IMG/VR virus record: IMGVR_UViG_3300050821_004084
Coordinates: 1 to 40,665 of that record
Source of the DNA: a virus
Reading direction: 5' to 3' (one strand)
DNA: 40,665 nucleotides
Part shown: positions 1,603-26,796 of the stretch, piece after piece
Position numbering within the stretch: the first letter of the stretch is position 1
Layout: every line of letters starts with the position of its first letter
Notes under the pieces: generated by a model
What the model saw: the letters and a program-made list of their open reading frames with translations, nothing else
The model's database searches: none
What the model was told of the DNA's origin: nothing
Made by a program: the position numbers and the translations under genes

Positions 1603-1606
1603 TCTC

Positions 1607-1814: not shown

Positions 1815-1827
1815 AAGGAGAAGTGAA

Positions 1828-2483
<656 letters not shown>

Positions 2484-2487
<4 letters not shown>

Positions 2488-2717: not shown

Positions 2718-2725
2718 AAGAAGCC

Positions 2726-6152: not shown

Positions 6153-6194
6153 TTCAGGCTCGGGCGCGTGGCGGATTCAGTCGGAGAGAGGGCC

Positions 6195-6598: not shown

Positions 6599-6652
6599 GC
6601 GGGGCGGAACAGGAGGCAAGGGCGCAATGAGCGAGAAAGGGCGGGGACCGTC

Positions 6653-7161: not shown

Positions 7162-7164
7162 CCT

Positions 7165-7511: not shown

Positions 7512-7807
7512 GCGACCAGACCTTCGCGGGGATGATTGCCGCGTTGCCACATGAAGGAGTTGGGTGGCATGAAAGGGATAAGCCCGACAAGACTTGCGTT
7601 CGTTGCCAACTGGAAGCCATAGAGACGAGGCTCAGGGGGCTACAACCTAACATGAATGAGCTACGACAGGTAGCAAAGAATTGCTTGACTCGCTGGGCTG
7701 ACCCGCGCAATGCATCGGCGTGTGATGAGCAGCTTCACGTCCCAGAGTTTTACACGCAGATAGTTAAAGTAGCCGACACCCTCGAAGCCATTCTCGGAGG
7801 AAAGTAA
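7508..7807 (+). CDS. hypothetical protein, 99 residues
   Basis: ATG 7508 overlaps the previous stop and sits in the repeated GAGGAAGCCATGA start cassette. It begins Met-Ser-Asp-Gln-Thr-Phe-Ala, like the previous gene. A Cys-Val-Arg-Cys pair lies near residue 35; the rest is helical. Its C terminus resembles that of the 6757-7161 protein. The function is unknown; it is probably part of a set of shuffled small genes. Confidence 0.6.
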   Translation: MSDQTFAGMIAALPHEGVGWHERDKPDKTCVRCQLEAIETRLRGLQPNMNELRQVAKNCLTRWADPRNASACDEQLHVPEFYTQIVKVADTLEAILGGK

Positions 7808-7941
7808 TGCTTAAACTTTGGAAAAAGATTTTCTACAAGATGCCTGTTGGCACAAAACCCGCACAATGCGTGACGGCTGGTAGCGGCAAGATAATTGTAT
7901 TTGACTGGACTGAGCAGGCACATGAAAGGATAAGCAGATGA
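7807..7941 (+). CDS. hypothetical protein, 44 residues
   Basis: ATG 7807 overlaps the previous TAA and has GGAGGAAAG directly upstream. The protein begins with a basic amphipathic segment (Leu-Lys-Leu-Trp-Lys-Lys-Ile-Phe-Tyr-Lys), and the rest is a short beta-like stretch. The stop overlaps the next ATG in ATGA. The tight fit between neighbours supports it, but no family can be named. Confidence 0.45.
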   Translation: MLKLWKKIFYKMPVGTKPAQCVTAGSGKIIVFDWTEQAHERISR

Positions 7942-8780: not shown

Positions 8781-8816
8781 CTGCTTTACGTTTGGGGAGC
8801 AGATGGCGGATTGGTG

Positions 8817-8924
8817 ATGGAAATTCTGTCTGGCGACCTAACAGCAGCAGACAATGACCCCGACGTGAACGCAGAATTGGCTCACTTGGAGCGCGAAGCA
8901 GCGCATCGAGTTTCGAGGGGTTAA
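8817..8924 (+). CDS. small acidic protein or gene remnant, 35 residues
   Basis: ATG 8817 to TAA 8922-8924. The frame is open back to 8781, directly after the preceding stop, with no good ribosome site for any start, so this may be the tail of a truncated gene at the edge of the accessory block. The sequence is acidic and helical. It is reported because it fills the gap before the next strong ribosome site. Confidence 0.3.
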   Translation: MEILSGDLTAADNDPDVNAELAHLEREAAHRVSRG

Positions 8925-8943
8925 ATTCAAAAGGAGAATCAAA

Positions 8944-9831
8944 ATGAACAAACAAGCTACGAAGCAGCAAGCAGTTAAGCCAGCGCAGCAGAATCAAGCG
9001 ATCGAGAAACGAAGCAGCAACGCGATCACAGAAGTACCAGACTATCTTCGCCGTAAGCCAGGCGTCGGAGCCGCCGGTTTCGACGAAGTCGAGCAAGGCG
9101 ATCTGACGCTACCGCGCCTCGGGTTGTGTCAAGCTCTCAACCCGCAACGCGATGCGACTGACCCGAAGTACATCGAAGGACTTGAAGAAGGCGAGTATTT
9201 CAACTCCCTGACGGGCGAGAACTATGGCGCAGAGGTAAAGATCGTACCACTGCTTTTCTACAAAAATCGCATTTTTTTCCGCGACAAGAAAAAAGGTGGC
9301 GGTATGCTTTGCCGAAGCGATGACATGAAACACGGCTCAGTCGAGCGCAGCGACTACAAAGAAGGCACATACGGCGGTGATTGCTTGACATGCAAGATGA
9401 ATCAGTTCGGCTCTGCGCGCAACGGCGAAGGGAAAGGAAAAGCCTGCACTGAGTTCTATAACTTCCCTTCGCTCGTCGTAATCGAAAACGCTGTGCGGCC
9501 AGAAAACTTAGTCGTTGCTTCGCTGAAGTCGAGCAACGTGCCGGCAGCGAAAGATTGGCTCGCAAAGATGCGGCTTCGTCAGATCGACATGTTCGGCGGT
9601 ATATACGATCTGACAAGCAAAAAAAAGAAGTTTACAGAAGGTTCTGCGTTCGTCACGCTCGTCGAACCGGCCGGAAACGTCTCGCTTGAAATGTATCAGT
9701 CAGCTAAAGTAGCACACGAAGCGATGTCGTCGCTCAGGCGGCAAGGCCGCTTGCATGTTGATGTCGAAGACTTAGAGCCGGGCGCAGACGACCCTGGTGC
9801 AGAAGAAAACGGCAAGAAAACACCATTCTAG
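8944..9831 (+). CDS. conserved phage protein, 295 residues, central Cys cluster; possible ssDNA-binding role
   Basis: A strong leader (AAAAGGAGAATCAAA before ATG 8944), almost the same as that of the DUF932 gene, suggests high expression. Residues 1-35 are Gln/Lys-rich and disordered. The core begins Leu-Pro-Arg-Leu-Gly-Leu-Cys-Gln. A cluster of Cys (Met-Leu-Cys-Arg-Ser, then Gly-Asp-Cys-Leu-Thr-Cys and a later Lys-Ala-Cys) suggests a metal site. The C terminus is acidic (Glu-Asp-Leu-Glu-Pro-Gly-Ala-Asp-Asp) with a terminal Phe, as often seen in single-strand DNA-binding proteins. That role is inference; I do not recognise the family with certainty. Its stop shares CTAG with the convergent gene. 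Confidence 0.7.
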   Translation: MNKQATKQQAVKPAQQNQAIEKRSSNAITEVPDYLRRKPGVGAAGFDEVEQGDLTLPRLGLCQALNPQRDATDPKYIEGLEEGEYFNSLTGENYGAEVKIVPLLFYKNRIFFRDKKKGGGMLCRSDDMKHGSVERSDYKEGTYGGDCLTCKMNQFGSARNGEGKGKACTEFYNFPSLVVIENAVRPENLVVASLKSSNVPAAKDWLAKMRLRQIDMFGGIYDLTSKKKKFTEGSAFVTLVEPAGNVSLEMYQSAKVAHEAMSSLRRQGRLHVDVEDLEPGADDPGAEENGKKTPF

Positions 9832-10376
9832 AAATGAACTGTTATACCGCTACTGACGACAGCGTTTGAAGCATTCGCTGTAGTGCCGGGAAGCGGTTGT
9901 GACGTGAGCACGCCGTTGACGATGCCGCCGTGAAGCCACTGCGCGCAAACGATTTTTGCTGAGACGTTAGCAGAGATCGGATAACTGACGCATGCACCGG
10001 CTGTTTCTGCGATGCGATTGACGCTAAGAGTATTTTGAGTAAGTTTGCCAGCACCGCCATAGACGCTGACAGTGATTTTCGAAGCGTCGAAGACGAGCTT
10101 TGAGCTGATAGACTTGCCGAGCCACGAGCTGAGCGGCTTTGCATAGTTCACTAGCCCGAGCCGTGCAGTAGCAAGATCCGGGATTGTGATTTGCTGATAG
10201 CCGAGCGAAAGCGATTTAGTCAAGTTGAAGTAGCCGTCTGCTATAGAAGCAGGTGTTGAGCCTGATGGCCCCATGAACGAGACAGCGCTGCCTGATAAGC
10301 TGAAGTGCTGCTGCTGAGCTGAGGCTGCTAACGACAGTGAGAGAAAAACAACTGTTATGACGATGATTCGCTTCAT
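9828..10376 (-). CDS. secreted protein, 182 residues, last gene of late operon
   Basis: The start at 10376 is fixed by AGGAGGAAAC directly before the ATG; longer in-frame starts lie inside the neighbour. Residues 1-22 form a classical signal peptide (basic Met-Lys-Arg, hydrophobic core, Ala-Ser-Ala then Gln-Gln-Gln). The mature protein is Ser/Thr/Gly/Ala-rich and beta-like with few charges, reminiscent of an outer-membrane beta-structure. It ends Ile-Thr-Val-His-Phe; a terminal Phe is typical of outer-membrane beta-barrels. Inference: a phage-encoded envelope protein that could alter the infected cell surface. Confidence 0.65.
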   Translation of the reverse strand: MKRIIVITVVFLSLSLAASAQQQHFSLSGSAVSFMGPSGSTPASIADGYFNLTKSLSLGYQQITIPDLATARLGLVNYAKPLSSWLGKSISSKLVFDASKITVSVYGGAGKLTQNTLSVNRIAETAGACVSYPISANVSAKIVCAQWLHGGIVNGVLTSQPLPGTTANASNAVVSSGITVHF

Positions 10377-10390
10377 GTTTCCTCCTGAAT

Positions 10391-11032
10391 TCAAAAACCA
10401 ACCGCTCCGCGTACTTCCCATGCACGTTGAAATAGCCACTGCGCAGCAGCAAGCCACACGTTGCGCGCTTTCGTGTATTGATCAGCGAACTTGTCAGCGA
10501 CGCGCTGAACGTCTTTAGCCGTTGCTTCAGTGCTAGCGCTTATCGTTACAGCATGTTCTGAGAGCGCTTCGACATTCTCTAAGCTCTTCTCTATAGCCGG
10601 GTCGCTGAGTACGCGCCCTGCAGCTCTTATTGCGTTTGCAAGCGCTTCTAAAGAAGGTTGAAGATCAGCTGTAACGCTTGCGACGCTATCAGCGACGCGC
10701 TTTTGACTGCTGTTTAGTTCCGATACTGTCTCGTCAATCGCAGGAAGTGTTCGTTGATGCACGTCGATAAAGACTTGTCTGAGCGAATCAATCGCTGCTC
10801 TGAACGCGCGCTCTGTCTTGCGCGCTTCTTCTGTCGTCGCTCGAAGCTTCTCGCTTTCTGCTGTGCTTGCAGCAGAAAAGTTCCTTGCCGTATCGTTCAC
10901 TTCAGCAAGCACAACATCGCTCATGCGTACTGACAGTCTCACGTCATGAATCAACGCGCTCGCTTGCAGCAGCGCGACGCACGAGCAGAACGTCAGCGAA
11001 ACGATGCAAATGAGCTTGATCGTGTCTTTCAT
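10391..11032 (-). CDS. membrane-anchored coiled-coil protein, 213 residues
   Basis: Residues 5-26 are a hydrophobic N-terminal anchor or uncleaved signal. Residues 35-190 are a long alanine-rich helical region with heptad spacing and many Ser/Thr/Glu, like the periplasmic coils of chemoreceptors. The gene follows the SLT lysozyme in the lysis group. It could act as a spanin-like envelope connector, but no lipobox and no second spanin component are evident. The role is inferred from place and shape only. Confidence 0.6.
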   Translation of the reverse strand: MKDTIKLICIVSLTFCSCVALLQASALIHDVRLSVRMSDVVLAEVNDTARNFSAASTAESEKLRATTEEARKTERAFRAAIDSLRQVFIDVHQRTLPAIDETVSELNSSQKRVADSVASVTADLQPSLEALANAIRAAGRVLSDPAIEKSLENVEALSEHAVTISASTEATAKDVQRVADKFADQYTKARNVWLAAAQWLFQRAWEVRGAVGF

Positions 11033-11050
11033 GTTATCTCCGACTCAGTG

Positions 11051-11482
11051 TCATTGATAATTCACCATTCTTGCTCGCACTTTAGCAGGGTATTCAGCAT
11101 CACCGCCGCCGTTCCATAGCAGCAGCGCTTTGTCTACGTCTCCGCTAGCTTCTTTCAGCTTCAGCGCGAGAAATTGACAGCCGACGCGCAGACCGACATT
11201 TGCAGCGCACAGCATCGGAAACGCCCCTGCATAGCCTACTTCACGAGCTGATTCACCCATGATCTGCATCAAACCCCACGACATTGAACGCGCCCACTCT
11301 TCTGTCGCTGTCAAATGCAGCGGCTTTTCGTATTTCTCATCGAAAGCAGGTTCTGCTCGCAGCGCGTATTGATTCCACAAGCTCTCTTGCTCGACTACTG
11401 CGCATACAAGCACAGGGTCTAAGCTTACTTGCAGAGCTTGAAATTTTGCTTGCGCGACGAGTTGCGGGTCCGGTGGCATCAT
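11051..11482 (-). CDS. SLT-type lytic transglycosylase (endolysin)
   Basis: 143 residues, close to the size of a lone SLT catalytic domain. The Glu-Gln-Glu-Ser-Leu-Trp-Asn segment places the catalytic Glu at residue 33, and Ser-Trp-Gly-Leu-Met-Gln-Ile-Met follows near residue 70, the conserved G-L-M-Q block. Leu-Leu-Trp-Asn-Gly-Gly-Gly near the end matches the Tyr/Trp-Asn-Gly-Gly motif. It cleaves peptidoglycan. There is no signal peptide, so it needs a holin; a small membrane protein is encoded just upstream with 4-bp overlap. Confidence 0.88.
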   Translation of the reverse strand: MMPPDPQLVAQAKFQALQVSLDPVLVCAVVEQESLWNQYALRAEPAFDEKYEKPLHLTATEEWARSMSWGLMQIMGESAREVGYAGAFPMLCAANVGLRVGCQFLALKLKEASGDVDKALLLWNGGGDAEYPAKVRARMVNYQ

Positions 11483-11652
11483 TTGCCAAGTGGCCTTTCT
11501 CTTGCTTCTCTCGCTGCATCCATTTCTATAGTTTCTAGTCTGACAACACGATCGCGCAAGTCTTTTAAGATGTAAGTCCCCATTGCCATCAAGAGAACTT
11601 GAAATGCTTGAAACACTGCGATGATGATTAGAGCTATCGCTTCACCTGTCAT
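11479..11652 (-). CDS. holin-like small membrane protein, 57 residues
   Basis: ATG with first base 11652 overlaps the stop of the gene before it (ATGA), and its TGA overlaps the lysozyme start. Residues 6-29 are one hydrophobic helix (Ala-Leu-Ile-Ile-Ile-Ala-Val-Phe...), followed by a charged helix rich in Arg and Glu and a basic end. One span plus a charged tail, next to the endolysin, fits a class III holin or an anti-holin. The functional call rests on position and topology. Confidence 0.6.
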   Translation of the reverse strand: MTGEAIALIIIAVFQAFQVLLMAMGTYILKDLRDRVVRLETIEMDAAREARERPLGK

Positions 11653-12086
11653 CGCACAGACCTGTCTTGTATGCCGCCGAGATCAGTGCGCTGCAACGGC
11701 TGTGCGGGTAAAGGAATGCCAGTCTCTGTCGGTGGTATCGTTGGCGCTTCGTCAGAACTGCCGTCTGGCAGCACTTTACCGTTCGGCGGGTTGTAGCGCA
11801 GCTTCAGCATGCCGACGCCTGTCAAGATGAACGATTCTCCGACATGCGCAACATCAGAAAGCTGGGTAAATAGACCGCCTAAGATGATCAGAACGATGCC
11901 GAGATGAATCATGTACAAGCCGATCGAGTCGCCCCAATGACGCGAGATAAAATCACCGATGCCACGAAGATGATCTATCACCCGAGCAGGCGGTTTGTAG
12001 AGCAGCAACAGAATGATCGCTGTGTAAAGCAGCAAGTGAAAACTCAAATGCGCTGCTATAAAGCGAGCTAGTGAAGCAAAGTCCAC
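11649..12086 (-). CDS. multi-span membrane protein, 145 residues
   Basis: GTG start at 12086. Two or three membrane helices are visible: residues about 12-30 (Phe-His-Leu-Leu-Leu-Tyr-Thr-Ala-Ile-Ile-Leu) and about 55-75 (Leu-Gly-Ile-Val-Leu-Ile-Ile-Leu-Gly-Gly-Leu-Phe), with a weaker one after. The C-terminal 50 residues are Pro-rich and polar. It lies directly upstream of the holin-like gene, so it may be the main holin or a holin partner; alternatively it is a separate inner-membrane effector. Confidence 0.6.
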   Translation of the reverse strand: MDFASLARFIAAHLSFHLLLYTAIILLLLYKPPARVIDHLRGIGDFISRHWGDSIGLYMIHLGIVLIILGGLFTQLSDVAHVGESFILTGVGMLKLRYNPPNGKVLPDGSSDEAPTIPPTETGIPLPAQPLQRTDLGGIQDRSVR

Positions 12087-12730
12087 AGTGAAGACCTCCT
12101 TGTCATTGTGCCGATGATGCTTGGCGCAGAGCTAGTCGTGCCGCTCGTATAAGTCACAGTAATTGTAGGAAAAGCAGAAACAGCAGCTTCAGCAACGTTC
12201 GAGCCGCTTGAATTAGAAGCCGAGATGAAAACACCGAACGTAGCTGCATTCACGTCAGCTGGTGCAAGAGTTGCGCCCCAAAGGTCGGTTGTCGAACCAT
12301 AGTTCTGAACGACATAAGAACCGTATGGCCAAACTAGAACGCTTAAATGATCAGTTCCAGTTACAGTAGCTCCGTCTTTCGTCAGAAAGACGTGGTTATC
12401 GACCGTTGTTGACGGGTTGATCGGCCCGCCTTGCCGGCTGATTGAAACTTGCACGCCGACGATCGTCGAGCCGACAGGAACTGCGAAGCCGAAGTTCGTA
12501 AGCGCAAGATAATCGCTCACGCCGCCGCTTACAGCGATCGGATATGCAACAGAGAAATTACCAGAAAAGCAAGCGTTTGACGGGTTTGTCCATACTTTTC
12601 CGCCCGTGATGACAACGTCAGCGCCAGTGCCGCAATTCTTCGCCCCAGTAGTGCCAGCATACACTGCGAACGCGCACAGCAAAACAACGAGCGAGATCGT
12701 AATTATGCGTCTAGCGTGCTTGCGTCTCAT
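12068..12730 (-). CDS. secreted virion-associated or surface protein, 220 residues
   Basis: The start at 12730 sits in ATGA with the upstream stop; an in-frame extension to 12829 has the composition of a shadow frame. Residues 1-25 form a signal peptide (Met-Arg-Arg-Lys-His-Ala-Arg-Arg, hydrophobic core, Val-Tyr-Ala). The mature part is low in charge, rich in Ser/Thr/Val/Gly, and beta-like, with two Cys. Adjacent genes are a fibre protein and lysis proteins. It could be a fibre accessory or an exported surface protein; I recognise no family. Confidence 0.6.
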   Translation of the reverse strand: MRRKHARRIITISLVVLLCAFAVYAGTTGAKNCGTGADVVITGGKVWTNPSNACFSGNFSVAYPIAVSGGVSDYLALTNFGFAVPVGSTIVGVQVSISRQGGPINPSTTVDNHVFLTKDGATVTGTDHLSVLVWPYGSYVVQNYGSTTDLWGATLAPADVNAATFGVFISASNSSGSNVAEAAVSAFPTITVTYTSGTTSSAPSIIGTMTRRSSLWTLLH

Positions 12731-13842
12731 GGCACTGTCGCATTCAACTGAACTGTCACGCGCGTGACTGTCGTCGCGCTGTTCACTGTGAACTGAATGA
12801 AGCTGTTCGCCAGTATCGCAGTGAACCATTTCGTAAGAGTCAAATTTTGATTGTTTTGCTGCGTCACGAGCGTCGGGCGATCAGTTCCGCCGTTCGTGTC
12901 GATGCTGTTCGCTGTCGGGAAGTTGGAATATAATCCGCTGCCAACTTCAATGACTATCGAACCAGATTGATCGGCAAGAATTGTCCAGCCGGTTATCGTG
13001 CAGTTGAAAGGAACGAGAATGTAACCCTTAGAGCCAGTAGTAATCACAGCACCGGCACCGTCGATGATGAACGGTATGCCGATAGTTCTGCTTTGCCATG
13101 TAGCTGTTGTAGAGCTTGTAGCTGTCGGGATTTGACCTGTCGTTGGAACGCCAGAGATTGTAACTCCATTCAGCGATGTTGTCGTCAGAGTGCCGCCTGT
13201 AATAAGCGGCGCTGTCAGCGTCTTGTTCGTCAGCGTTTGCGTGTCTGCTAGGCGGACGAAACAATCCCATACTGTAGTGAACGAGCGAAAGCACGGTATG
13301 TCGCTGCGATAATCGACAAGGCCAGCAACGCCAGTCGGGTCTGACGTAACGCCGGCAAACGTGATCGATTGCGTGCCTGTAACGACTTGAAACGCGCTGA
13401 CGTTGTCTTGCACCCATTGCTGCGCACCGCTAGCGCAATTCACACCACCGCTGCTGAAGACGCTTATCTTGTACTCTTGATTCGCGAGATAGATTGTCGC
13501 GCGACCTGCTGCGTCTAAGATGATCGGATTAGTATTCTGAACAATCCCGTTAATGTCGACGTATGTCGCAGCAGGTGTTGTTGTGCCAGCATTGTACGTA
13601 AAGACGCACCCACCAGCGAGCGGCGTGCCGTTCTGATCGCTGAACTGTATGCGCGGCGTCGGAGTTAACGCGACTGGTACTTGTGCAGCTAAGTCTATAG
13701 GAATCAATAAGATAGATAGCAGCAAGATAGATGCTAATAGAAAACGCTCGAAGTACGAGACGTTTCTTGAGAAATAACGCGCCACCGAGCTTCCCATTGC
13801 TAAATTCGCTAGTTCTACGAAGCTTCTTGAACGTGTTTTCAC
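12727..13842 (-). CDS. tail-fibre-like protein with N-terminal signal peptide
   Basis: 371 residues from a GTG that overlaps the upstream stop (GTGA). A hydrophobic stretch ending Leu-Ala-Ala-Gln at about residue 54 looks like a long signal peptide; an internal ATG at residue 16 would shorten it. The next domain (Ile-Gln-Phe-Ser-Asp-Gln-Asn-Gly, Gly-Gly-Cys-Val-Phe-Thr-Tyr, then Ala-Gly-Thr-Thr-Thr-Pro) is a beta-sandwich type often found at the base of phage fibres. It is followed by Asp-Ala-Ala-Gly-Arg-Ala and repetitive Thr/Leu-rich beta stretches, ending in a compact Thr/Val-rich domain. Its likely role is host binding. The signal peptide is odd for a virion protein. Confidence 0.65.
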   Translation of the reverse strand: MKTRSRSFVELANLAMGSSVARYFSRNVSYFERFLLASILLLSILLIPIDLAAQVPVALTPTPRIQFSDQNGTPLAGGCVFTYNAGTTTPAATYVDINGIVQNTNPIILDAAGRATIYLANQEYKISVFSSGGVNCASGAQQWVQDNVSAFQVVTGTQSITFAGVTSDPTGVAGLVDYRSDIPCFRSFTTVWDCFVRLADTQTLTNKTLTAPLITGGTLTTTSLNGVTISGVPTTGQIPTATSSTTATWQSRTIGIPFIIDGAGAVITTGSKGYILVPFNCTITGWTILADQSGSIVIEVGSGLYSNFPTANSIDTNGGTDRPTLVTQQNNQNLTLTKWFTAILANSFIQFTVNSATTVTRVTVQLNATVP

Positions 13843-15779
13843 GGGTTAGCTCTCCTGAACAGCTCGTCAGGCTGCGCTAAGCGCTGCCCAGTGACGGGGG
13901 AAGTCACTTGCTGCGCAAGCGATGCAGGCAACGCAGCAAACGGCGTCGTGCGCACAGCAGGCACTGCACGTGCAGGCAAGTATGACAGCGCGTCTCTCGG
14001 CATCGAGAGCTTCGCTGCTGCTGACATTTTAGCTTGATTCCAAAAGCCGAGCTGGCTGATCGAAGATGCCGCCCCGCCCGTACCTGAAGGGTTAGGGTCA
14101 TACTGCAATCTGTTCGCGAGATCAGCTTTCAAGTACAGTTCTTTTACTTCTGCAGGCGAGAAGAGCGCTTTCAAGTAAGCATCATCGTAGCCGCCAAGAC
14201 CGTCGTGCGCAATGCGAAAGCGCGAGCGCGCGATGTCTTGAATGACTTGCCGCTTGAGCGGTTCTAGCGCAGCAGTCATACCTTCATTTTTCAACAATTC
14301 GATGTCAGTAGCAGGCGCGTTCGAGAGTTGCGCGACGATCTTCGTCGGGTCGCGCTGATTGATTATCTTATAGAGCGGCGACTTCACATCGCCGTACTTC
14401 TGCTTGTAGTCTTTCCAACCAGCGTTTGCGGCTTGCCAGTCGTCTGAAGCACCTTTAGCTGCTGCATGCGCATCGAGCGCAGAACTTGCTGAGTTTTCCA
14501 TCTTTTGATACGTTGCTTGCGTCTTGTCAGGCAAGCCTTCTGTATCGCCGAGATCGCGAAAGAACTTTCTCAGCTGAATCGTCTGCGCTACTGTGGGAGC
14601 AAAACCTTCTGGCTTGCCACTCAATAAGTCTTCGACGACTGCGCGCATCGAGCGCGGTGTTTGCGCGAGTATCGCGTCTTCTGCGCCGATTGGCAGATCG
14701 CCTTTAATGCCGTTCCATGCTTTAGAGATCGAAGCACCGTTCATCTTCGAGTCCATCAAATAATCAATCTTGTCGTAATTCTGCGCAGCATTATCATGCG
14801 CGACGCTGCGAGCTGTTTTTGCAATGCGGTTGATCGTCTCACCTGCTTGCTCGCTAGATAGCCCCATACGTTTTGGATCAACATTGTCCATGAAACGGTT
14901 TACAGCAGCACCGAACTTCGCGCGATTCTCTGCAAGCGCTGCAGCTAAATCTTTCCCGCCTACTGCTGCTGTAGTGCCAGCTTTCTGCAAGTTCTGCGCC
15001 ATCGCGTCTTCAGTGCCTTGACCAGGGGTAAGATTGATTCCTTCGTCGTGAGCGTGCTGTAAGACTTCGCGCGGCGTGTTCGCTAGCGCAGGCTGTATCG
15101 CGCCGCCCGCTCGCGGCGCGTCAGCTTCTGCTGCAGTGAGAGAACGGCCGAGCGCTGATTCGACTGTCTTAGCAGGAGAAACGCGCGACCAAACAGATTC
15201 CCCAAACTTTCCTAAGAATGGCAGCGAAAGCGCAGCAATATCAGTAGCCGCTGCACCTGCAGCAGCAGTAGGATGCTCTTCAGCTTCACGCGCGCGGCTT
15301 TTCAAAGCTTCTGCTGCGCTAGCAGGTGATGGCGGCGTATAGCCTGCAACAGAAGAAGTCTTCGTCGGGTCACCGAACAAAGCACTTTCGCCGAAAGCGC
15401 CTTTGAACAAGTTCTTCACTTCGTCCCATGAACGGCCGAGAAAACTCGTCGGTGTAGCTGCTTGCGGGTTTGCTTCTGCGTACGCGCGTGAGAATTTTTC
15501 GACATCGATCTTGTTGAAATCGTCCGTTGAGAGCTTGCCGTAGTTTTCGAACAGCGTCTTCGAAAGGTCTACGCTGCGCGGGAGTGCGTATCTGTCTTTG
15601 AGATCGTTCCAGTAACTGTCAGAATTAGAAGCACTAGCAGAAGAAACGGCCCCGCCATGCTTAGCAATAAGACTGTCGAAGTCCACGCTGCTGCTTCCAT
15701 CGCCAGCTGGCGGAGCCGCCGTCCCGCCGTGCTTCGCGATGAGCGCATCATAATCAACAGTTTGCGTTCCGTTCGCCAT
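13839..15779 (-). CDS. DNA ejection protein candidate (P22 gp16 position)
   Basis: 646 residues, third of three consecutive large Ala-rich soluble proteins placed as the gp7/gp20/gp16 ejection proteins are in P22-like phages. The N terminus has a duplicated motif: Val-Asp-Tyr-Asp-Ala-Leu-Ile-Ala-Lys-His-Gly-Gly (residues 8-19) and Val-Asp-Phe-Asp-Ser-Leu-Ile-Ala-Lys-His-Gly-Gly (about 32-43). Long helical regions follow. No lysozyme or protease motif is visible. Such proteins leave the capsid with the DNA and help it cross the envelope. The call is from position, size and composition rather than direct similarity. Confidence 0.65.
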   Translation of the reverse strand: MANGTQTVDYDALIAKHGGTAAPPAGDGSSSVDFDSLIAKHGGAVSSASASNSDSYWNDLKDRYALPRSVDLSKTLFENYGKLSTDDFNKIDVEKFSRAYAEANPQAATPTSFLGRSWDEVKNLFKGAFGESALFGDPTKTSSVAGYTPPSPASAAEALKSRAREAEEHPTAAAGAAATDIAALSLPFLGKFGESVWSRVSPAKTVESALGRSLTAAEADAPRAGGAIQPALANTPREVLQHAHDEGINLTPGQGTEDAMAQNLQKAGTTAAVGGKDLAAALAENRAKFGAAVNRFMDNVDPKRMGLSSEQAGETINRIAKTARSVAHDNAAQNYDKIDYLMDSKMNGASISKAWNGIKGDLPIGAEDAILAQTPRSMRAVVEDLLSGKPEGFAPTVAQTIQLRKFFRDLGDTEGLPDKTQATYQKMENSASSALDAHAAAKGASDDWQAANAGWKDYKQKYGDVKSPLYKIINQRDPTKIVAQLSNAPATDIELLKNEGMTAALEPLKRQVIQDIARSRFRIAHDGLGGYDDAYLKALFSPAEVKELYLKADLANRLQYDPNPSGTGGAASSISQLGFWNQAKMSAAAKLSMPRDALSYLPARAVPAVRTTPFAALPASLAQQVTSPVTGQRLAQPDELFRRANP

Positions 15780-17267
15780 TTACTTGATGCCTGCTTCTTT
15801 CTTGAAATTATCAAGCGCAGCTTGAGTAGGAAAGCTGACAGGACCTTTTCCAGGTACGTTAACAGTAAAAGCACTAGCGCCACCTCCCCCTTGCTGCGCT
15901 GGCAGCTTCGCAACATCTTTCATGTAATCCATTTCTGAAAGCACACCTGAGCGCAGCGCTTCACCGTTCATCTTCTTGGCGTTCGCTAAGTCTTCGAAGT
16001 GTTCTAAGAGAAAAGCTCCGCCACGGCTGCCGACGTGAGCTTGCATCAATTTCGTAGTGCTCAACCCCATCTTCGCGCGCAGCGCGTTGTATTCAGCGTC
16101 ACCGACGCCAACTTTACCGGTGACGAATTCGTTCCAGCGCGAAGCGATCGCTCCGAGTTTTCCTTCGCTATCTAAGCGATTAATGAGTTGCGTGATGCCC
16201 ATTTTGTCTGGCGGTGTATCTTTTTCAGTTCCCGGCTTATCGGCGAGTTTTAGCCAATCGCGCGCTGCTTGCGATTTATTTACGAGATCAGTATCGGCCT
16301 TCATCGTACCAGTTAAGCCCATCTTTTTTGCATCAGCAGTAGAAACGAGCACTGTATTCCCGCTAGCATCTTGACCAACAACAGGCTCGTTGCCGAGTTT
16401 CTGATCGCGGTCAGCAGCGCTGTCTTTCGCGAGTTGCAATGTTTGTTCTCTGATGCTATTAGAAAGTTTCAGTTGCGCTTGAGCATCTTTGTGATTCAGC
16501 TTAGTAGCTTGCGACTGTTCTGTTTGCTGCATGATTTTTTCGATTCTGTCAGCGTCTTTTTGCGTCGCGTTGTCTGGCAGCTTGAATGCCGAAGGAAGCG
16601 GCATGCCCGGATTCATCTGCTGAAAGCGCAAAGTCATGCCATCGTTGAGTTGACTGACCATGTTTTTAGCTAGCGGCTGCTCACCTTCGGGAACTTTTCC
16701 AGCAGTTTTCATCCTGGCTTGAGCAGCGAGGCGCGCCGAAGTCCCGGCAAGATTCGCCCCGATAGCATCGAAATTCTTAGGATCATACTCTTGCGGAAAC
16801 TTCGATACGTCAAGACCTGGAACCATCGCAAGGCTGTTAAGCGATGTCTTGTACGCCGCCGGACGGTCTGCTTCAGGAAGCGCCGCGACTGAATCATGCG
16901 CTTGCAGAATAGCATCGTTTTGCGTTTGCATGTTTTCAAGCTGCGTTTTCGTAAGCGATGCTTCTTTTTCTTTTTGCCCGAGAATTAGCGTATGAAGATT
17001 GATCAAACTAGCCGGAGATGCGCCTTGATCTGCTGCATCGTTGAAAGTCTTGTCTAAATCCCCTTTGTTCTTCTTGTACGAATCGCTGATGATTTGCTTG
17101 TCTTTGACTTCTTGTTGCAAGAGTTGATTCTGCAAACCGCTGCGCTGAATCTCTTGCTGTTGCAACTGCTGACCGCCGATCATGCTCTTTACAGATAGCG
17201 CTTTAGCGTATTGATCGAGTGGATTCTCCGGCGGCCTGATCGAAAGTGCTGGTAGAGGTATGCCCAT
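15780..17267 (-). CDS. DNA ejection protein candidate (P22 gp20 position)
   Basis: 495 residues; the gene lies directly between the two other ejection candidates, with no spacer before 15779. The N-terminal 130 residues are Gln-rich helices (Gln-Gln-Leu-Gln-Gln-Gln-Glu, repeated) with coiled-coil character. The middle is polar helix; the C terminus (Phe-Pro-Thr-Gln-Ala-Ala-Leu-Asp-Asn-Phe-Lys-Lys) is a short conserved-style motif found at the ends of many phage internal proteins. There is no membrane span. Function is inferred from gene order. Confidence 0.65.
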   Translation of the reverse strand: MGIPLPALSIRPPENPLDQYAKALSVKSMIGGQQLQQQEIQRSGLQNQLLQQEVKDKQIISDSYKKNKGDLDKTFNDAADQGASPASLINLHTLILGQKEKEASLTKTQLENMQTQNDAILQAHDSVAALPEADRPAAYKTSLNSLAMVPGLDVSKFPQEYDPKNFDAIGANLAGTSARLAAQARMKTAGKVPEGEQPLAKNMVSQLNDGMTLRFQQMNPGMPLPSAFKLPDNATQKDADRIEKIMQQTEQSQATKLNHKDAQAQLKLSNSIREQTLQLAKDSAADRDQKLGNEPVVGQDASGNTVLVSTADAKKMGLTGTMKADTDLVNKSQAARDWLKLADKPGTEKDTPPDKMGITQLINRLDSEGKLGAIASRWNEFVTGKVGVGDAEYNALRAKMGLSTTKLMQAHVGSRGGAFLLEHFEDLANAKKMNGEALRSGVLSEMDYMKDVAKLPAQQGGGGASAFTVNVPGKGPVSFPTQAALDNFKKEAGIK

Positions 17268-17272
17268 ATAAG

Positions 17273-18070
17273 TTATACGTTCCCTTGCTGATTTTGCTGC
17301 GCCATAAGCTTTTGCATCAGTTCTAAACCGCTCAAGTTCGAAATAGTCGAGCCGAAAGCGTTCGCAGCGCCAGCGTAGCCTGAAGCTGTAGCTGCAGCTG
17401 CGTTCTGAATGTCTTGCCCTTGCTGCGCGCCTGTCGTCAAGTTGATGTTTGAAACGTTGCTTGCAGCTTGCTGACCGAATAATCCTGTTGTCGTCGCAGC
17501 TTGCTGACCTGCACCAGAGATGCCTGCCAGCCTGTTGTACGTGTCTGTCTGATTGTTTCTAAACTTTTCATACGCAGTTTGATACTGCGTCAGCGCGTTC
17601 GAAAATACGTTCTGATAATTAGACGCCGCCAAGCCTTGACCGAACTGTTCTACGCCGCGAAGCGTGCCGCCAGTAAGCAAACCGCCGCTAGCTGCTGCTG
17701 AGTTTTGAAGTGCGCGCTCGCCTTCTTTGAACTGAAACTGATAACCGGGCGTTGCTGCAGCTTCTGCTGCTGTCGGGGCTTTGAACGTGCCAGTCCACGG
17801 CGAGAGCAAGCCTTTTCCGGGCGTCGAGAGAAGCCCGCTTAGCGTATTGATCGCACCTGTGCCGGCTTTGAGCCACGGTTGTTCTCGCGCAACGTTCTCA
17901 GAATAGACTTGCTTCTGAAACGCGAGAGATTGATCTGCTTCTTCTTTTTGCAGTTGCGCAGCTGACTTCGCTGCATCAGCTTGCGCGCTACTGCCGGCGA
18001 TAGAAGCAGCAGCGCCACCAACACCGCTAGCGATCGCGCCGATACCAAGAGCTGTCGTTAGAAACGGCAT
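17273..18070 (-). CDS. DNA ejection/transfer protein (P22 gp7-like)
   Basis: 265 residues. It begins with a Gly/Ala hydrophobic stretch (Gly-Ile-Gly-Ala-Ile-Ala-Ser-Gly-Val-Gly-Gly-Ala-Ala), then a Gln-rich coil. It carries the pattern Pro-Gly-Tyr-Gln-Phe-Gln-Phe...Glu-Gly...Ala-Leu-Gln-Asn-Ser-Ala-Ala-Ala-Ser-Gly-Gly, typical of phage DNA-transfer proteins. The C terminus is Ala/Gln-rich. These proteins are packaged in the capsid and enter the host envelope during DNA delivery. It is the first of the three-gene ejection set. Confidence 0.75.
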   Translation of the reverse strand: MPFLTTALGIGAIASGVGGAAASIAGSSAQADAAKSAAQLQKEEADQSLAFQKQVYSENVAREQPWLKAGTGAINTLSGLLSTPGKGLLSPWTGTFKAPTAAEAAATPGYQFQFKEGERALQNSAAASGGLLTGGTLRGVEQFGQGLAASNYQNVFSNALTQYQTAYEKFRNNQTDTYNRLAGISGAGQQAATTTGLFGQQAASNVSNINLTTGAQQGQDIQNAAAATASGYAGAANAFGSTISNLSGLELMQKLMAQQNQQGNV

Positions 18071-18086
18071 AAATAATAAACCAGTC

Positions 18087-18542
18087 CTACTTCAACTCCT
18101 TCAAGTATTTCACTTCCATCTTGCGAAACCCGAAGCGCTCGTAGATTGCGCCGATCTTGTCGTCAGGCGCTGAGACTTGAAAATCTCGACAGCCAAGCTC
18201 GCGCGCGATACGCTCAGCTTCCCACAAAAGCTGAATGCCAGCGCCGCCTTTGCGGTAATCTTTTTCGACAAACCACATCAGCTCGTCTGCTGTAACTGTG
18301 CCGCTGAATGGATGGGCAACGATGAGCATGCCAAAGACGCCCGTTATGCGGGCAGCTGCGCCGTCGTTCGAATGTTCTTCCCACAATAGAATATTGCCGC
18401 CGCCGTGTATAAGTTGAAGCGCAAGCTCGTACGTCTTCTTCGGATTATCTACAATCACACTAGCGTACGGGCCGTCGATGAGAGACTGAGAGCCAAGCTC
18501 ACAGATGCGCGGCACATCGGCAGATGTTGCTAGACGAATCAT
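18087..18542 (-). CDS. GNAT-family N-acyltransferase, coupled to an ACP gene
   Basis: 151 residues, a full single GNAT domain. It starts Met-Ile-Arg-Leu-Ala-Thr-Ser-Ala-Asp-Val-Pro (first strand and helix) and has the pyrophosphate-binding loop Arg-Lys-Gly-Gly-Ala-Gly near residue 97, within Asp-Tyr-Arg-Lys-Gly-Gly-Ala-Gly-Ile-Gln-Leu-Leu. It ends with Ala-Ile-Tyr-Glu-Arg-Phe-Gly-Phe, the usual last motif. The family transfers acyl groups from CoA, and in some branches from acyl-ACP, to amines. Its ATG overlaps the stop of the acyl carrier protein gene (ATGA), so the two are made together; acyl-ACP is therefore a plausible donor. The acceptor is unknown. Phage GNATs also occur as virion or host-modifying proteins. 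Confidence 0.85.
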   Translation of the reverse strand: MIRLATSADVPRICELGSQSLIDGPYASVIVDNPKKTYELALQLIHGGGNILLWEEHSNDGAAARITGVFGMLIVAHPFSGTVTADELMWFVEKDYRKGGAGIQLLWEAERIARELGCRDFQVSAPDDKIGAIYERFGFRKMEVKYLKELK

Positions 18543-18787
18543 CGCGGGTGCGCCTCAATATACTTCACAACGTCTTGAACTGTCAGAATCTTCTGCATGT
18601 CGTTTTCTTCGAGCGTGAGACCGAATTCGCCTTCTATCTCCATGACTAAGTTCAGCATTTCAAGAGAATCAGTCACGAGCGAAACGAGCGTTGTCGAAGC
18701 TTTCAGCTCTTCGACAGCGACGCCTGTCTCTGATGAGACAACTTCTCTGACGCGCGCTAGAACGCTTGAAGCGTGATGCGTTTCCAT
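18539..18787 (-). CDS. acyl carrier protein
   Basis: 82 residues, the normal ACP length. The ATG at 18787 has GGGAAG upstream; a longer frame to 18916 is shadow. Asp-Ser-Leu-Glu puts the phosphopantetheine-bearing Ser at residue 41. Flanking helices match the family: Val-Arg-Glu-Val-Val, Thr-Gly-Val-Ala-Val-Glu-Glu-Leu before it, and Leu-Val-Met-Glu-Ile-Glu-Gly-Glu-Phe-Gly-Leu after it, then Leu-Thr-Val-Gln-Asp-Val-Val-Lys-Tyr-Ile. The host 4'-phosphopantetheinyl transferase would have to activate it, as none is encoded here. It overlaps the preceding gene by 31 bp and the GNAT gene by 4 bp. An ACP in a virion gene cluster is unusual. Confidence 0.9.
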   Translation of the reverse strand: METHHASSVLARVREVVSSETGVAVEELKASTTLVSLVTDSLEMLNLVMEIEGEFGLTLEENDMQKILTVQDVVKYIEAHPR

Positions 18788-19008
18788 TGATTCTTCCCTG
18801 TACTTACATACAGATAATTCTGATCGAAAGCAAACGCGCCGCCGCTCGCTATCGTTACGATCGACGAAGCTGGCGGCGGATTCGCGTTTGCTGGAAATTT
18901 TAGAGTTGTCCACCAATTCACAAACATTTGCGCCCAGCCGGAAATGAACGCGCCTTTCTCGTCGAGCGGCTTCGTGTTCAATGGTGCAGGCGATACGGCT
19001 AGCGGCAT
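18757..19008 (-). CDS. hypothetical small structural-region protein, 83 residues
   Basis: ATG 19008, just after the gp10-like stop. It begins with a Pro-rich arm (Met-Pro-Leu-Ala-Val-Ser-Pro-Ala-Pro-Leu), then Trp-Ala-Gln-Met-Phe-Val-Asn-Trp-Trp-Thr. It ends with a beta-like part (Gly-Gly-Ala-Phe-Ala-Phe-Asp-Gln-Asn-Tyr-Leu-Tyr-Val) that ends Trp-Lys-Arg-Ile. Small proteins of this type commonly follow tail genes in podoviruses. It may be a minor virion part or a short tail-needle accessory; I do not recognise it firmly. Confidence 0.6.
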   Translation of the reverse strand: MPLAVSPAPLNTKPLDEKGAFISGWAQMFVNWWTTLKFPANANPPPASSIVTIASGGAFAFDQNYLYVSTGKNQWKRITLQAF

Positions 19009-19009
19009 G

Positions 19010-20587
19010 TTACGCCACCTTCCCAAAAGTCTTGACGAGCCGCTCTTGCGCTGCGTAGCCAGGTTGAGCGTCTAAGTAGCCTTCGACGAGCCGCCACGGT
19101 ATTGGGTCTGTCGCCGACAGTTCGAACACCATGCCGGTTTTCGAGCTTCCCATGCGGCTGCGGCGAACGCGCTTGCGATACTGACCTGCTTGCCCGCAAG
19201 GTAATTCGTATTCATTTGACCATGTCTTAGAGTAGTCTTTCGAGAAGCGCAGCATCAAGAGCGGGTCGCGAGCATTGCCAGCACCGTCTAGCAGCGGAGG
19301 TTGCGGCCCTAGCCCAGTCTCAACGTCGACGTGAAGCTCGCTGTAGAACATGCGCTTGAACTCAAGCCCGACGTGCGGTGCACGGCGGATACGCTTTATC
19401 GGATTGCCGAAATCGTCGGCGAACTTCCACGCGCTGCCTGAAGCTATTGGTATCGACTGCTGATAGATATTCCCCGAGCCGGGGTCGCCTATGAGATGCT
19501 TCGAGAAAGCGAAAGCGTGATTCGCGCTTTTGTGGGCAGAGAAAAGACCAGTCGAGATGTTCCAGTATGCGCGCTCGTGCCACATGCCAGTTGCTGTATC
19601 GTACGCCCAAGTCTTTTGAGCAGTTGGGAATTGAAAGACGACGAACGTGTGACCATCTTCTTCGTAACTGTACGCGACGCAATCTGAAAGCGTACTACCA
19701 CTGCGCACGTAGCCTTGAAGCGCATTTTCAACAGCATGATTCGATACGCGAACAGGCGTATAACCTGAAGCGCGGCGGACGATGCCGCCGCCACGCTCTT
19801 CTTGATCGAGCCAAAAAACAGAATTGTCAGCACGGCAAAACCCATTGACGCTGAGAGCACCGTTCTCGATCGTGCCGCTCGGGTCTACGTCGAAGATGTT
19901 AAGCCCGCCTGAATCGTAGTAGACAGTCGAACGCTTGCGGCCTAAAACCCACAAGCGGCGCTGATTCTCGCAGATCGATTGCACGTTGTCAGAAAAAACG
20001 CTGACGACGATGATGTTCAATGCAGGCCAGCTCGTCGCGTCTAACGGCGTCGAAAGATAGATCGTCTGAGAATTGCGCAGTAGCACGATGAAGAAGCCAT
20101 CGATATACTCGACCATTGATGGGTTGCCGATAGCGCCGCCGGGTAGCGTGAAGTTAGCATTAGGGATTTGAACAAACGTACCGGCAACGCCATTACCAAG
20201 AGCGCGATTCGCTTGCGTTTGAAGCTGATAGACGTAGAGATTGCCGCCTGCTGCGATGAGCAACTGCTGTGGCGATGCAACCATCGAAGCGGGAAGAAGA
20301 TCATTTGTGACTTGCGCGATGATGTTAAACGTGCCATTTGCAAACAGCTCGACGAAGTTCGTGCTGCTGACTTCGAAGCAACGAGAGTTGATCTCAAGCT
20401 TCGCGCGGGACGGCCCGCCGCCGGGTATCGTGTAAGCAATCGACGTGCCCGGTGTAGGATAGAGCGCTGCAGCAGACTTGCCTTTCTGACTCTCGATGAA
20501 CTCGACGTACCAGTTGCGTGTCAACTGACAGTCTGCTACAAGCGATTGCGATTGATACGTCGGGCCGATAAGATCGAAGCGCGCCAT
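19010..20587 (-). CDS. P22 gp10-like packaged-DNA stabilisation / tail hub protein
   Basis: 525 residues. The start Met-Ala-Arg-Phe-Asp-Leu-Ile-Gly-Pro-Thr-Tyr and the following Cys-Gln-Leu-Thr-Arg-Asn-Trp-Tyr-Val-Glu, then Leu-Tyr-Pro-Thr-Pro-Gly-Thr, match the opening of gp10-family proteins. The body is beta-rich with propeller-like repeats, including Arg-Arg-Leu-Trp-Val-Leu-Gly-Arg-Lys-Arg-Ser-Thr-Val-Tyr-Tyr. It closes with a conserved Arg-rich stretch. The family plugs the portal-adaptor tube after packaging and anchors the tail needle. It sits downstream of the adaptor gene, as expected. Confidence 0.78.
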   Translation of the reverse strand: MARFDLIGPTYQSQSLVADCQLTRNWYVEFIESQKGKSAAALYPTPGTSIAYTIPGGGPSRAKLEINSRCFEVSSTNFVELFANGTFNIIAQVTNDLLPASMVASPQQLLIAAGGNLYVYQLQTQANRALGNGVAGTFVQIPNANFTLPGGAIGNPSMVEYIDGFFIVLLRNSQTIYLSTPLDATSWPALNIIVVSVFSDNVQSICENQRRLWVLGRKRSTVYYDSGGLNIFDVDPSGTIENGALSVNGFCRADNSVFWLDQEERGGGIVRRASGYTPVRVSNHAVENALQGYVRSGSTLSDCVAYSYEEDGHTFVVFQFPTAQKTWAYDTATGMWHERAYWNISTGLFSAHKSANHAFAFSKHLIGDPGSGNIYQQSIPIASGSAWKFADDFGNPIKRIRRAPHVGLEFKRMFYSELHVDVETGLGPQPPLLDGAGNARDPLLMLRFSKDYSKTWSNEYELPCGQAGQYRKRVRRSRMGSSKTGMVFELSATDPIPWRLVEGYLDAQPGYAAQERLVKTFGKVA

Positions 20588-23718: not shown

Positions 23719-26700
23719 TTAATCCACTACGTCCACAATCAACTGCCGTCCTGTGGCTACGTTACTCGCACTCGCTGCTGTAAAGGCGACACTAACTTGC
23801 AAAAAGTTCTGCGCCGTCAAGTCTATCGCGCTCGGACTACCGCTGATAGTTGCTGTATTGCCGTCCGCGAATACACCTTCCGCCGCTGTCGTGAGTGCTG
23901 AAATGTCAATGGTCAAGTTGCCGTGAGCCTCGGCAGCGCTCGACGCACCAGCCGTTGTCGTTGACGCCATAATCTGCACGTTGAACGGGTCATTCGTGGC
24001 TTGAATCCCGGCAAGTGCTGTCGAACTAATATTGACGAGCGTGGCGACGTTGCCGCTCGCACAGCCAGACACTGAGCATAACTTAATTTTGAGCGTCACT
24101 GCCGTAGTAGAAGCGGCTGGCGTTGAGTACACGCCTGCTGTCTGAATCATCAGCGTCTTGCCGACAGCGTTGAGCGTATTTGCAGGGATAGTGCACGCCT
24201 GCATATTCTGGTCAGTTGTGACGGAACCACCGGAGGTTGTGACTGGCGTTACGTTTACGCAAGTGAAGCCGACAGGCGGGGAGCCTGAATCAACTAGCTG
24301 GCCAGTAGCGTTAATTTTTACGCTGTCTCCTGCCGTCAGCGTCCCGGTAGTCGCGGCAACAGTGCAAGCCGCTCCCGTACAAGTGGCGGAATCTGCAAAA
24401 TTATAATCCCGCGATGTCGCCCCACCAGTAAACGACCCAGTTAACTTGCCGCAGTTCTGTAAGGTGACAGTAGCGCAGTGAAAAAAAATGTTGCCAGAAC
24501 TATCCACCCACCCTATCGCCAATCCAGCGCCGTTGCCGAATTGCGTCCCTCCCGTGCCCGTGCCATTCAGGACGTTAAGTGTTACTGCTCCCGTGCTGGC
24601 AGAGTTTAGTCTAGTCACTCCGGCACTGCTTGCATTTTGAAAAAACTGTAGGCGGTTGACGTTGTTAACTCGGTCAAAAACATCGAAGACGTTGCCAGAA
24701 TCCTTATCTATTGACCACTCTTTTGTGCCGCGGTCCAGGAGATAGAGACTTGCACTCTGAGTCGCCGTCGAGCCGGAATCAAGGTCGATGGCCTCCATAG
24801 CATTGTCTTGCTGATTTTTTACGAGTAGCGCAGTGTTGGCGGCGTTCGGGCGAATCCACAGTTGGTTCCAGTCAATCACCATCGGATAGAAGCTAGCGCT
24901 GGAATCTCCGCCAAAGTGGTAGAGTGGGAGATACGTCTTTGCCGATTCACTGAATCCTGAAATACTATTGCTGACGGTCGTGCCCGTACCGCTCTGGCGC
25001 ATGTTCTGAAAAGTTAGGTTCGCGGATTTACCAGCAGAGGCCTGGGTAATGCCAATCAGCGTGTCGGTGTTTTGCGTTGCGCTGGCTATCCCGGCGAAAT
25101 TGTAGTTGTTGGCATCAGTCATCTTGAAGTGAGTTGAACTTCCGTTCAACTGATTCTCTGTGTAGAAGCCCGTAACAGAGCCACCAAAGATTGCCCCAGA
25201 GCAAGTCGCTCCTTGGCCATTGACTTCAAATAGTGGTAAGCCAGAGGCGGGGTGGTTGGCTACTCCTCCTATGACCGAGATGGGAAGAACGCCAGCACAG
25301 CTGCCGGATGTCGCGGTGATTTTCCAGGGCTGGTTCCCGGCGTTGTAATTGCCGTCAGACCACATATTCGTGAGCACGATTGGGCCGACCACGGCATTAT
25401 TGCCGCCGACATTGTTCGAGGCCACGCGAATCCCGATGGTGTTGGCAAAGTTGAAAAATTGTGAATTGTCCCACTGGTTCATCGAAGAGATGCCTTCGAT
25501 GTTGAGGAAGGCGACAGCGGGCGAGCCTGTCCCGACCGTTCCCGTAGGGCAGCCCTCGCCGAAGATATGGCTCATGTAGCCGTATCCCTGCTGCGCACTG
25601 AGTCCTTCAACGGTGCTGATGGCGCTCCCTGTGATGTTCGCGCTGCAACCAAGTTTTATATACGCGCCACCTGTGCGACTGCCGCCGATGGCTCCATTGT
25701 TCGCGCCGACGAGCGCCGAAGCGTTGTGAATGCCCAGGAAGTAAGCGTGCGCGGTCGAAGTGTTGTCGAGCCACTGGTTGCCGGGATGCAGTTCGACAAC
25801 AGCCGTTTTCGTCGCGCTGCCGATGTCCACCAGCCCCGGAGATGTGTCTGTGGCGTTGTCTGGGCAAGTCAAGATGAAGCCGCCCTGCGTCGCATTTGTT
25901 TGAATATCAGAGAGCGCACTCTCGATTGTTGGAAATCGAAACCCAGCGCCAGCACAGTTCCAGCGAGAATGGTTTATTAGGCCAAACTTTAGGTCATCGG
26001 CCCCAGCCGCAGCAGCATTGTTAAATGTGGTAAGTCCCGTCGCCGTGAGGTTGCCGGTGATCGTAACAGGGCCAGTGTGATTCTCTGGTCCTGTTGAAGT
26101 CAGTCCGTTCGGAAATACTGGCGAACCAGTAGCCGTACCACCGCCTGAAGTGCCAAGTCCGATTGTAGCATTAGTATATGTGAATGTAGAACCACCATTG
26201 CAGCCGGGCGTTAAGACGACGAACGAACCGTTATAACCACTGACGCCAACGCCAGAGATCGTAACAGCTTGATTCGTCGTGAACGTGCACGTCGCTGTCG
26301 TCGTGATCGTTACTGTGTTGCCGCTCTCTGTAGCGCCAGTCGGCGCGCTTGCGATCGAAAACGCTACGCCAGAAATAGTGCTAGGCGTGATAGACATGCC
26401 AGTAGGAACACCAAGGCTGACGACGTACGGGCCAAACGACTGACCAGTCGAGACAGTGATCGTGTAATCAAACGTGCCAGCACCGATATAAAAGCCGTAA
26501 TTGCCTTTCGCATCGCTTGTCGCAACACACGTAGAAGTGCCGTCAAGAACGACTTGCGTCGCCGTAGAGCATGGCGTCGCAAGCGTTACGTCAGTGTATG
26601 TGTTGACTTTGTTCGTGCACGGTACTGCATTTGCCGGATGCGCGCAGACGGCTAAAGTGCCTTGCGCTGTAGAGATCGGGCCGGCGGTGACGAGCGAAGA

Positions 26701-26796
26701 AGAGACTGTCGAAGGGCCAACGCGAAAGCCTTGAGCGTTAGATACAGCACTGCATGCGAAGAGCAGCAATGCTCCGAAGATGAGCCGCTTTAGCAA
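23719..26796 (-). CDS. large tailspike/fibre protein with signal peptide, TTG start
   Basis: 1025 residues. A TTG with the ribosome site GGTGG is the start; the first 22 residues are a signal peptide (Met-Leu-Lys-Arg-Leu-Ile-Phe-Gly-Ala-Leu-Leu..., Ser-Asn-Ala then Gln). Next come a small beta domain with Cys and Thr/Ser/Gly repeats. The centre (about residues 270-620) has Phe-Pro-Thr-Ile-Glu-Ser-Ala-Leu-Ser-Asp-Ile and many Gly/Asn turns, as in pectate-lyase-like beta-helix spikes. The C-terminal part has further repeat and trimerisation-like beta stretches. No catalytic residues can be named. The likely role is receptor binding or capsule degradation. The middle of the gene has visibly different base use. 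Confidence 0.68.
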   Translation of the reverse strand: MLKRLIFGALLLFACSAVSNAQGFRVGPSTVSSSLVTAGPISTAQGTLAVCAHPANAVPCTNKVNTYTDVTLATPCSTATQVVLDGTSTCVATSDAKGNYGFYIGAGTFDYTITVSTGQSFGPYVVSLGVPTGMSITPSTISGVAFSIASAPTGATESGNTVTITTTATCTFTTNQAVTISGVGVSGYNGSFVVLTPGCNGGSTFTYTNATIGLGTSGGGTATGSPVFPNGLTSTGPENHTGPVTITGNLTATGLTTFNNAAAAGADDLKFGLINHSRWNCAGAGFRFPTIESALSDIQTNATQGGFILTCPDNATDTSPGLVDIGSATKTAVVELHPGNQWLDNTSTAHAYFLGIHNASALVGANNGAIGGSRTGGAYIKLGCSANITGSAISTVEGLSAQQGYGYMSHIFGEGCPTGTVGTGSPAVAFLNIEGISSMNQWDNSQFFNFANTIGIRVASNNVGGNNAVVGPIVLTNMWSDGNYNAGNQPWKITATSGSCAGVLPISVIGGVANHPASGLPLFEVNGQGATCSGAIFGGSVTGFYTENQLNGSSTHFKMTDANNYNFAGIASATQNTDTLIGITQASAGKSANLTFQNMRQSGTGTTVSNSISGFSESAKTYLPLYHFGGDSSASFYPMVIDWNQLWIRPNAANTALLVKNQQDNAMEAIDLDSGSTATQSASLYLLDRGTKEWSIDKDSGNVFDVFDRVNNVNRLQFFQNASSAGVTRLNSASTGAVTLNVLNGTGTGGTQFGNGAGLAIGWVDSSGNIFFHCATVTLQNCGKLTGSFTGGATSRDYNFADSATCTGAACTVAATTGTLTAGDSVKINATGQLVDSGSPPVGFTCVNVTPVTTSGGSVTTDQNMQACTIPANTLNAVGKTLMIQTAGVYSTPAASTTAVTLKIKLCSVSGCASGNVATLVNISSTALAGIQATNDPFNVQIMASTTTAGASSAAEAHGNLTIDISALTTAAEGVFADGNTATISGSPSAIDLTAQNFLQVSVAFTAASASNVATGRQLIVDVVD

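Follow-up and report, generated by a model that had tools for sequence, protein, structure and literature searches.

A conserved gene pair for an acyl carrier protein and a GNAT-fold acyltransferase in the DNA-injection gene block of uncultured short-tailed phages

Results

The ACP and GNAT genes

The window, by which we mean the whole 40,665-nucleotide stretch of viral DNA that was analysed (IMG/VR record IMGVR_UViG_3300050821_004084), carries a gene for an acyl carrier protein (ACP) followed directly by a gene for an acyltransferase of the GNAT fold, both on the minus strand (Table 1). Both open reading frames are complete: that of the ACP runs from an ATG at 18787 to a TGA at 18539-18541, and that of the GNAT from an ATG at 18542 to a stop at 18087, with the tetranucleotide ATGA shared between them, in agreement with the translational coupling proposed in the first-pass annotation. 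The ACP start is in turn nested within the last 31 nt of the upstream gene for a small protein of 89 aa, and the same overlap is found in 10 of the 12 junctions measured in this phage group. Because of the 31-nt nesting on one side and the ATGA on the other, the ACP gene is locked between two overlapping neighbours.

Table 1. Genes of the ACP-GNAT locus and its neighbourhood in the window
Feature	Position	Strand	Size and remarks	Basis
646-aa protein, P22 gp16 slot	13839..15779	-	646 aa	PHROG 770 DNA transfer protein, 6.7e-8
495-aa protein, P22 gp20 slot	15780..17267	-	495 aa	position only
gp7-like DNA-ejection protein	17273..18070	-	immediately 3' of GNAT	PHROG 598 DNA ejection, 3.6e-29
GNAT-fold acyltransferase, type I	18087..18542	-	151 aa	Pfam, PHROG 1249, AlphaFold2
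ACP	18539..18787	-	82 aa, Ser41 in DSLE	Pfam PP-binding, PHROG 5934
Small protein, tail-needle (P22 gp26) slot	18757..19026	-	89 aa	PHROG 17312 tail protein, 6e-4
Head-closure protein Hc3, P22 gp10-like	19010..20587	-	neighbourhood anchor	PHROG 578, 2.9e-77

The identification of a complete ACP with a modifiable Ser41 is borne out by the Pfam PP-binding model (PF00550), which the protein matches with E=1.4e-11 and 44.9 bits, passing the curated cut-off of 20.8, as well as by PHROG 5934 (acyl carrier protein; 1.4e-11). Ser41 lies within TDSLE. The protein falls under every cut-off of the NCBIfam ACP models, and for this reason we regard it as divergent. Among the 24 aligned ACPs, the phosphopantetheine Ser is present in all and the Asp before it in 23, the D-S pair is invariant in an alignment of 12 ACP sequences, and the net charge of the aligned proteins ranges from -6 to -12. 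The ACP of contig L106 (positions 425-685) has I-A-S-L in the place of D-S-L, with the Ser retained and the usual Asp gone; the GNAT of this contig has no P-loop of the usual form and groups in the tree as sister to ACP-less GNATs, and L106 possibly represents a decaying pair.

In scans of whole records, each of 11 records that carry the ACP gave a single PP-binding match, and 23 records picked for the absence of an ACP at the GNAT site gave none. A record-wide search for a phosphopantetheinyl transferase (PPTase) found none in 19 records with the pair, as expected from the proposed dependence on the enzyme of the host; absence of genes is weak evidence here, because several of these records are fragments.

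The GNAT exceeds the curated cut-offs of the Pfam families Acetyltransf_7 (1.1e-6) and Acetyltransf_1 (1.2e-6) and is matched over its whole length by PHROG 1249, annotated as 'acetyltransferase' (E=2e-18). We distinguish type I, the kind found in the window, from type II, a second GNAT subtype paired with an ACP; the two share about 20% identity and are related with an hhalign probability of 98%. AlphaFold2 models of the window GNAT (pLDDT 95.3) and of a type-II GNAT (pLDDT 93.1) were compared with known structures. The model of the window protein has the GNAT fold, with GNATs as the top PDB matches (Z 16-17), and the closest folds of the GNAT models are those of ordinary members, namely SSAT, YncA, RimI, NatA/NatC subunits and aminoglycoside acetyltransferases. 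The CoA P-loop (Q/R-x-x-G-x-G/A) is intact in the window GNAT as R97-K-G-G-A-G102, and irregular or absent in most type-II GNATs. Given this fold and motif, the enzyme may well use acetyl-CoA. Kinship to LuxI, FeeM or HlyC is not supported: the LuxI, FeeM/N-acyl amino acid synthase and HlyC/RtxC-type Pfam families give no match to the window GNAT at E<=1, and no LuxI, FeeM or HlyC-type chain is found among the best 50 fold matches of the GNAT models. The earlier suggestion that this GNAT takes acyl-ACP is therefore not established, in view of a model like those of acetyl-CoA-dependent GNATs, a preserved P-loop and the lack of such Pfam matches.

The virion gene neighbourhood

The ACP-GNAT pair shares its strand with the genes for the terminase, portal, scaffold, major head protein, Hc3 and gp7-like ejection proteins, which agrees with the placement of the pair in a virion gene cluster. 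The window follows a P22-like order of head closure, small protein, ACP, GNAT and gp7-like ejection protein, the order in P22 being gp10 (Hc3), gp26 (needle), gp14 (151 aa), gp7, gp20 and gp16; because the two orders match, the GNAT occupies the slot of P22 gp14. The phages of this group are uncultured and short-tailed, and the cassette lies within the block of genes for the DNA-injection machinery. No PHROG or Pfam family matches the protein in the gp20 slot. The same is true of a virion-block protein of 1025 aa encoded at 23719-26796 of the window.

Distribution and conservation of the pair

Profile searches of viral contigs with Hc3 and with the GNAT recovered 80 loci each, in which ACPs were called with purpose-built ACP models; alignments of all the ACPs and all the type-II GNATs were too divergent for such searches, and a narrower type-II set succeeded. 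The first-pass annotation had called for a search for the pair in other phage genomes, and the pair proved to be conserved in 27 contigs, 26 of them viral contigs from IMG/VR (the window included) and one from a bacterial genome of the class Terriglobia. The ACP is directly 5' of a type-I GNAT in 10 contigs and of a type-II GNAT in 16, among which three pairs are identical. In 14 of 24 distinct pairs the two genes overlap by 4 nt, the others having a longer overlap or an uncertain start. When type-II GNAT loci were searched for independently of the ACP, an ACP was directly upstream in 13 of 13. Among the recovered viral loci we found no ACP without a GNAT. On the other hand, many type-I GNATs of related phages are without an ACP, which implies that a carrier is not indispensable to the GNAT step, and inspection by eye of seven such GNAT-only loci revealed no obvious ACP remnant. 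A tblastn search with three ACPs against 50,697 records of phages, made to find cultured phages with the pair, gave either no match or remote ACPs only.

Two kinds of alternative arrangement were noticed at the same place. In several ACP-less relatives a gene for a DUF6445 protein of about 200 aa adjoins the GNAT gene among the ejection genes; it lies downstream of the GNAT in L061 (8585-9214), L118 (3423-4031) and L137 (3423-4034) and upstream in L029 (8214-8804), as identified with Pfam PF20043 in L061 and L029 and by eye in L118 and L137. Here a different second gene accompanies the GNAT. Contig L017 has a third, shorter GNAT (7819-8199) and no ACP, and its Hc3 is about 66% identical to that of the window. 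The start of this GNAT gene sits 31 nt inside the upstream gene, at the position of the ACP start in the other phages.

A type-II GNAT is present in 1 of 399 genomes of the class Terriglobia (Acidobacteriota), to which a Candidatus Acidiferrales MAG belongs. The phage-like contig concerned (L207; contig 79 of genome G404, positions 1-20000) encodes Hc3, ACP, type-II GNAT and gp7-like proteins, with a 4-nt overlap between the ACP and GNAT genes and an ACP barely above the Pfam cut-off (21.3 versus 20.8 bits). It points to hosts in Acidobacteriota, a tentative link given that the contig may have been binned wrongly.

Both genes of the pair are under purifying selection. Compared with the nearest relative of the window, dN/dS is 0.20 for the ACP, 0.10 for the GNAT, 0.10 for Hc3 and 0.15 for the gp7-like protein. 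The sister contig shares 76% identity with the window in the ACP and 81% in the GNAT. This constraint and the presence of the pair in 27 contigs mark it as more than a chance arrangement.

Co-evolution of ACP and GNAT

Distances between ACPs correlate with those between their GNATs (24 pairs; Mantel r 0.69, p 1e-4), and the correlation persists when the divergence of Hc3 is removed (20 pairs; partial Mantel r 0.60, p 0.0002). At the second residue after D-S-[LM], all 14 of 14 ACPs that partner a type-II GNAT have Phe, against 0 of 10 that partner type I; the rows are not independent, so that such counts overstate the number of events. Hc3 of the window is 65-69% identical to that of seven type-II phages and 32-51% identical to that of four other type-I phages (the sister contig excluded), yet both ACP and GNAT of the window belong to type I, from which it appears that the cassettes have been swapped between phages as units. 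In a tree of type-I GNATs, built quickly and with many weak forks, the presence of an ACP requires 3 changes, against 9 with shuffled labels.

Discussion

Translational coupling, conservation as a pair and the correlated divergence of the two proteins make it highly probable, in our opinion, that ACP and GNAT are functional partners. A co-evolving, dedicated acyl carrier points to chemistry that involves an acyl thioester, and suggests an acylation step late in infection by these phages, whose substrate is perhaps the virion itself. The ACP and the GNAT would then form a dedicated acyl-transfer pair, produced together with the ejection proteins late in infection, as the position of the genes leads us to presume. 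The PPTase of the host would charge Ser41, and host metabolism, by way of fatty-acid synthesis or an acyl-ACP synthetase, would acylate the holo-ACP; the modification of Ser41 and the identity of the acyl chain are both things that we infer. From the pantetheine arm, the GNAT could then pass the acyl group on to an amine. Granted the partnership, we consider it somewhat more probable that the ACP is the acyl donor than that it is not, because of the precedents of SbzC/SbzI, FeeM and HlyC. Against this direction stand the CoA P-loop kept by the window GNAT and its best structural neighbours, which use acetyl-CoA. Partnership and donor role taken together, with the target left open, come just short of an even chance.

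A free-standing metabolic or signal module is not supported: the GNAT is a usual resident of the virion and ejection block of podoviruses, which favours a late target connected with the virion over a lipid or a quorum signal. The acceptor would most likely be a virion protein of the adjoining ejection block, and, if the partners act with the ACP as donor, the chances that the target is a virion protein are evenly balanced, judging from gene position and presumed late expression. The gp7-like protein is a candidate target and the 495-aa protein in the gp20 slot would be a second one. It is tempting to consider that acylation lets the ejected proteins sit in the host membrane. The complete scenario, in which phage ACP and matching GNAT lipidate an ejection protein during assembly and thereby make the injected channel membrane-active, remains on the doubtful side.

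Several other roles can be considered for the pair. The ACP might be a structural or regulatory partner whose binding lends stability to the GNAT or to an ejection protein as the virion assembles, in the way the mitochondrial ACP acts as a structural partner in other complexes, the GNAT being either acetyl-CoA-dependent or a non-enzymatic assembly factor. This would agree with the annotation of the slot proteins P22 gp14 and T7 gp13 as morphogenesis or internal virion proteins, with the CoA P-loop retained in the window GNAT and with the existence of relatives that have the GNAT alone. However, conservation of the Ser in all 24 aligned ACPs goes beyond purely structural need, even if an acylated ACP can be structural too, and we find this role unlikely. 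Alternatively, the GNAT could work in the opposite direction and load the ACP, charging its thiol from acyl-CoA, with host enzymes using the product; polyketide synthases have GNAT loading domains, both the P-loop and the ACP serine are intact in the window, and the co-evolution is silent on the direction of transfer. Nonetheless, among the genes examined there is no further enzyme to use the loaded ACP, and most type-II GNATs have an irregular P-loop, which leaves loading distinctly unlikely.

The remaining alternatives place the pair in small-molecule or primary metabolism. An ACP together with a GNAT is the arrangement of FeeM and of SbzC/SbzI, and the pair might make N-acyl amino acids or a signal akin to homoserine lactones, as do FeeM and LuxI; yet the window GNAT lacks any match to the LuxI or N-acyl amino acid synthase families (E<=1), has just 151 aa and is encoded among virion genes, so that this function seems quite improbable. 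Phage ACPs have also been proposed as auxiliary metabolic genes, for instance that of R22Y (PMC11705849), and the ACP could accordingly feed host fatty-acid synthesis, its proximity to the GNAT being incidental. That would be very improbable for an ACP that adjoins a GNAT in 27 contigs, co-evolves with it beyond phage kinship and has diverged from host ACPs.

If the preferred reading, an ACP serving as acyl donor to its GNAT, is correct, the phage ACP gains a rationale other than host fatty-acid metabolism. Proteins of the GNAT superfamily, or annotated as acetyltransferases, adjoin virion and ejection genes in many podoviruses, and the reason for their retention among the injection genes also becomes directly testable.

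Comparison with known systems

Phage-encoded ACPs have been described as auxiliary metabolic genes in R22Y (gp30) and in Rhodobacteraceae prophages; unlike the ACP of the window, these are not described together with a GNAT or an ejection block in the portions of those reports available to us. In a study of Acidobacteriota viruses, the predicted genes likewise include one for an acyl carrier protein (PMC11924767).

Enzymes of the GNAT kind with a carrier protein as donor are exemplified by SbzC, SbzI and FeeM (PMC6331615). They resemble the system described here in that the acyl carrier protein with which the GNAT works is encoded in its own cluster, but differ in belonging to biosynthetic clusters with adenylate-forming enzymes rather than to virion genes. 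HlyC and ApxIC use acyl-ACP as the donor to acylate lysines of a protein, the fold of ApxIC is GNAT-like, and enzymes of the HlyC type are devoid of CoA-binding elements (PMC8339906); they show no Pfam relation to the window GNAT, which retains the P-loop.

Among virion genes, P22 gp14 (DUF2824, PHROG 651, head morphogenesis) occupies the corresponding slot, with the needle gene on one side and gp7 on the other, and, like the window GNAT, has 151 aa; P22 differs in having no ACP at this site. Comparison of the window GNAT with gp14 gave an hhalign probability of 0.2% from shallow alignments (three gp14 rows), and PHROG 651 weakly matches (E 0.22) only the same-slot protein of another phage. 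With respect to T7 gp13, there is no PF11090 match, and the hhalign probability is 0.1% against a single sequence. As these profile comparisons, with their shallow alignments, are without signal, we claim a correspondence of position only.

GNATs at comparable positions are found in Pam1, in a metagenomic phage and in a vibriophage. In the cobaviruses, the GNAT near the virion genes has been put forward as the counterpart of T7 gp13 and given a proposed part in morphogenesis (PMC6775973). Both the cobaviruses (SIO1, ICBM1/2) and Pam1 have a GNAT of PHROG 1249 at a position similar to that in the window, and the window GNAT matches SIO1 and Pam1 in tblastn; the difference is that neither the Pam1 nor the SIO1 record contains an ACP anywhere. 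In the literature searched, which left most subscription journals outside, no description of a conserved ACP-GNAT pairing among virion genes came up. GNATs at such positions in podoviruses are already known, and it is the ACP partner that constitutes the new part.
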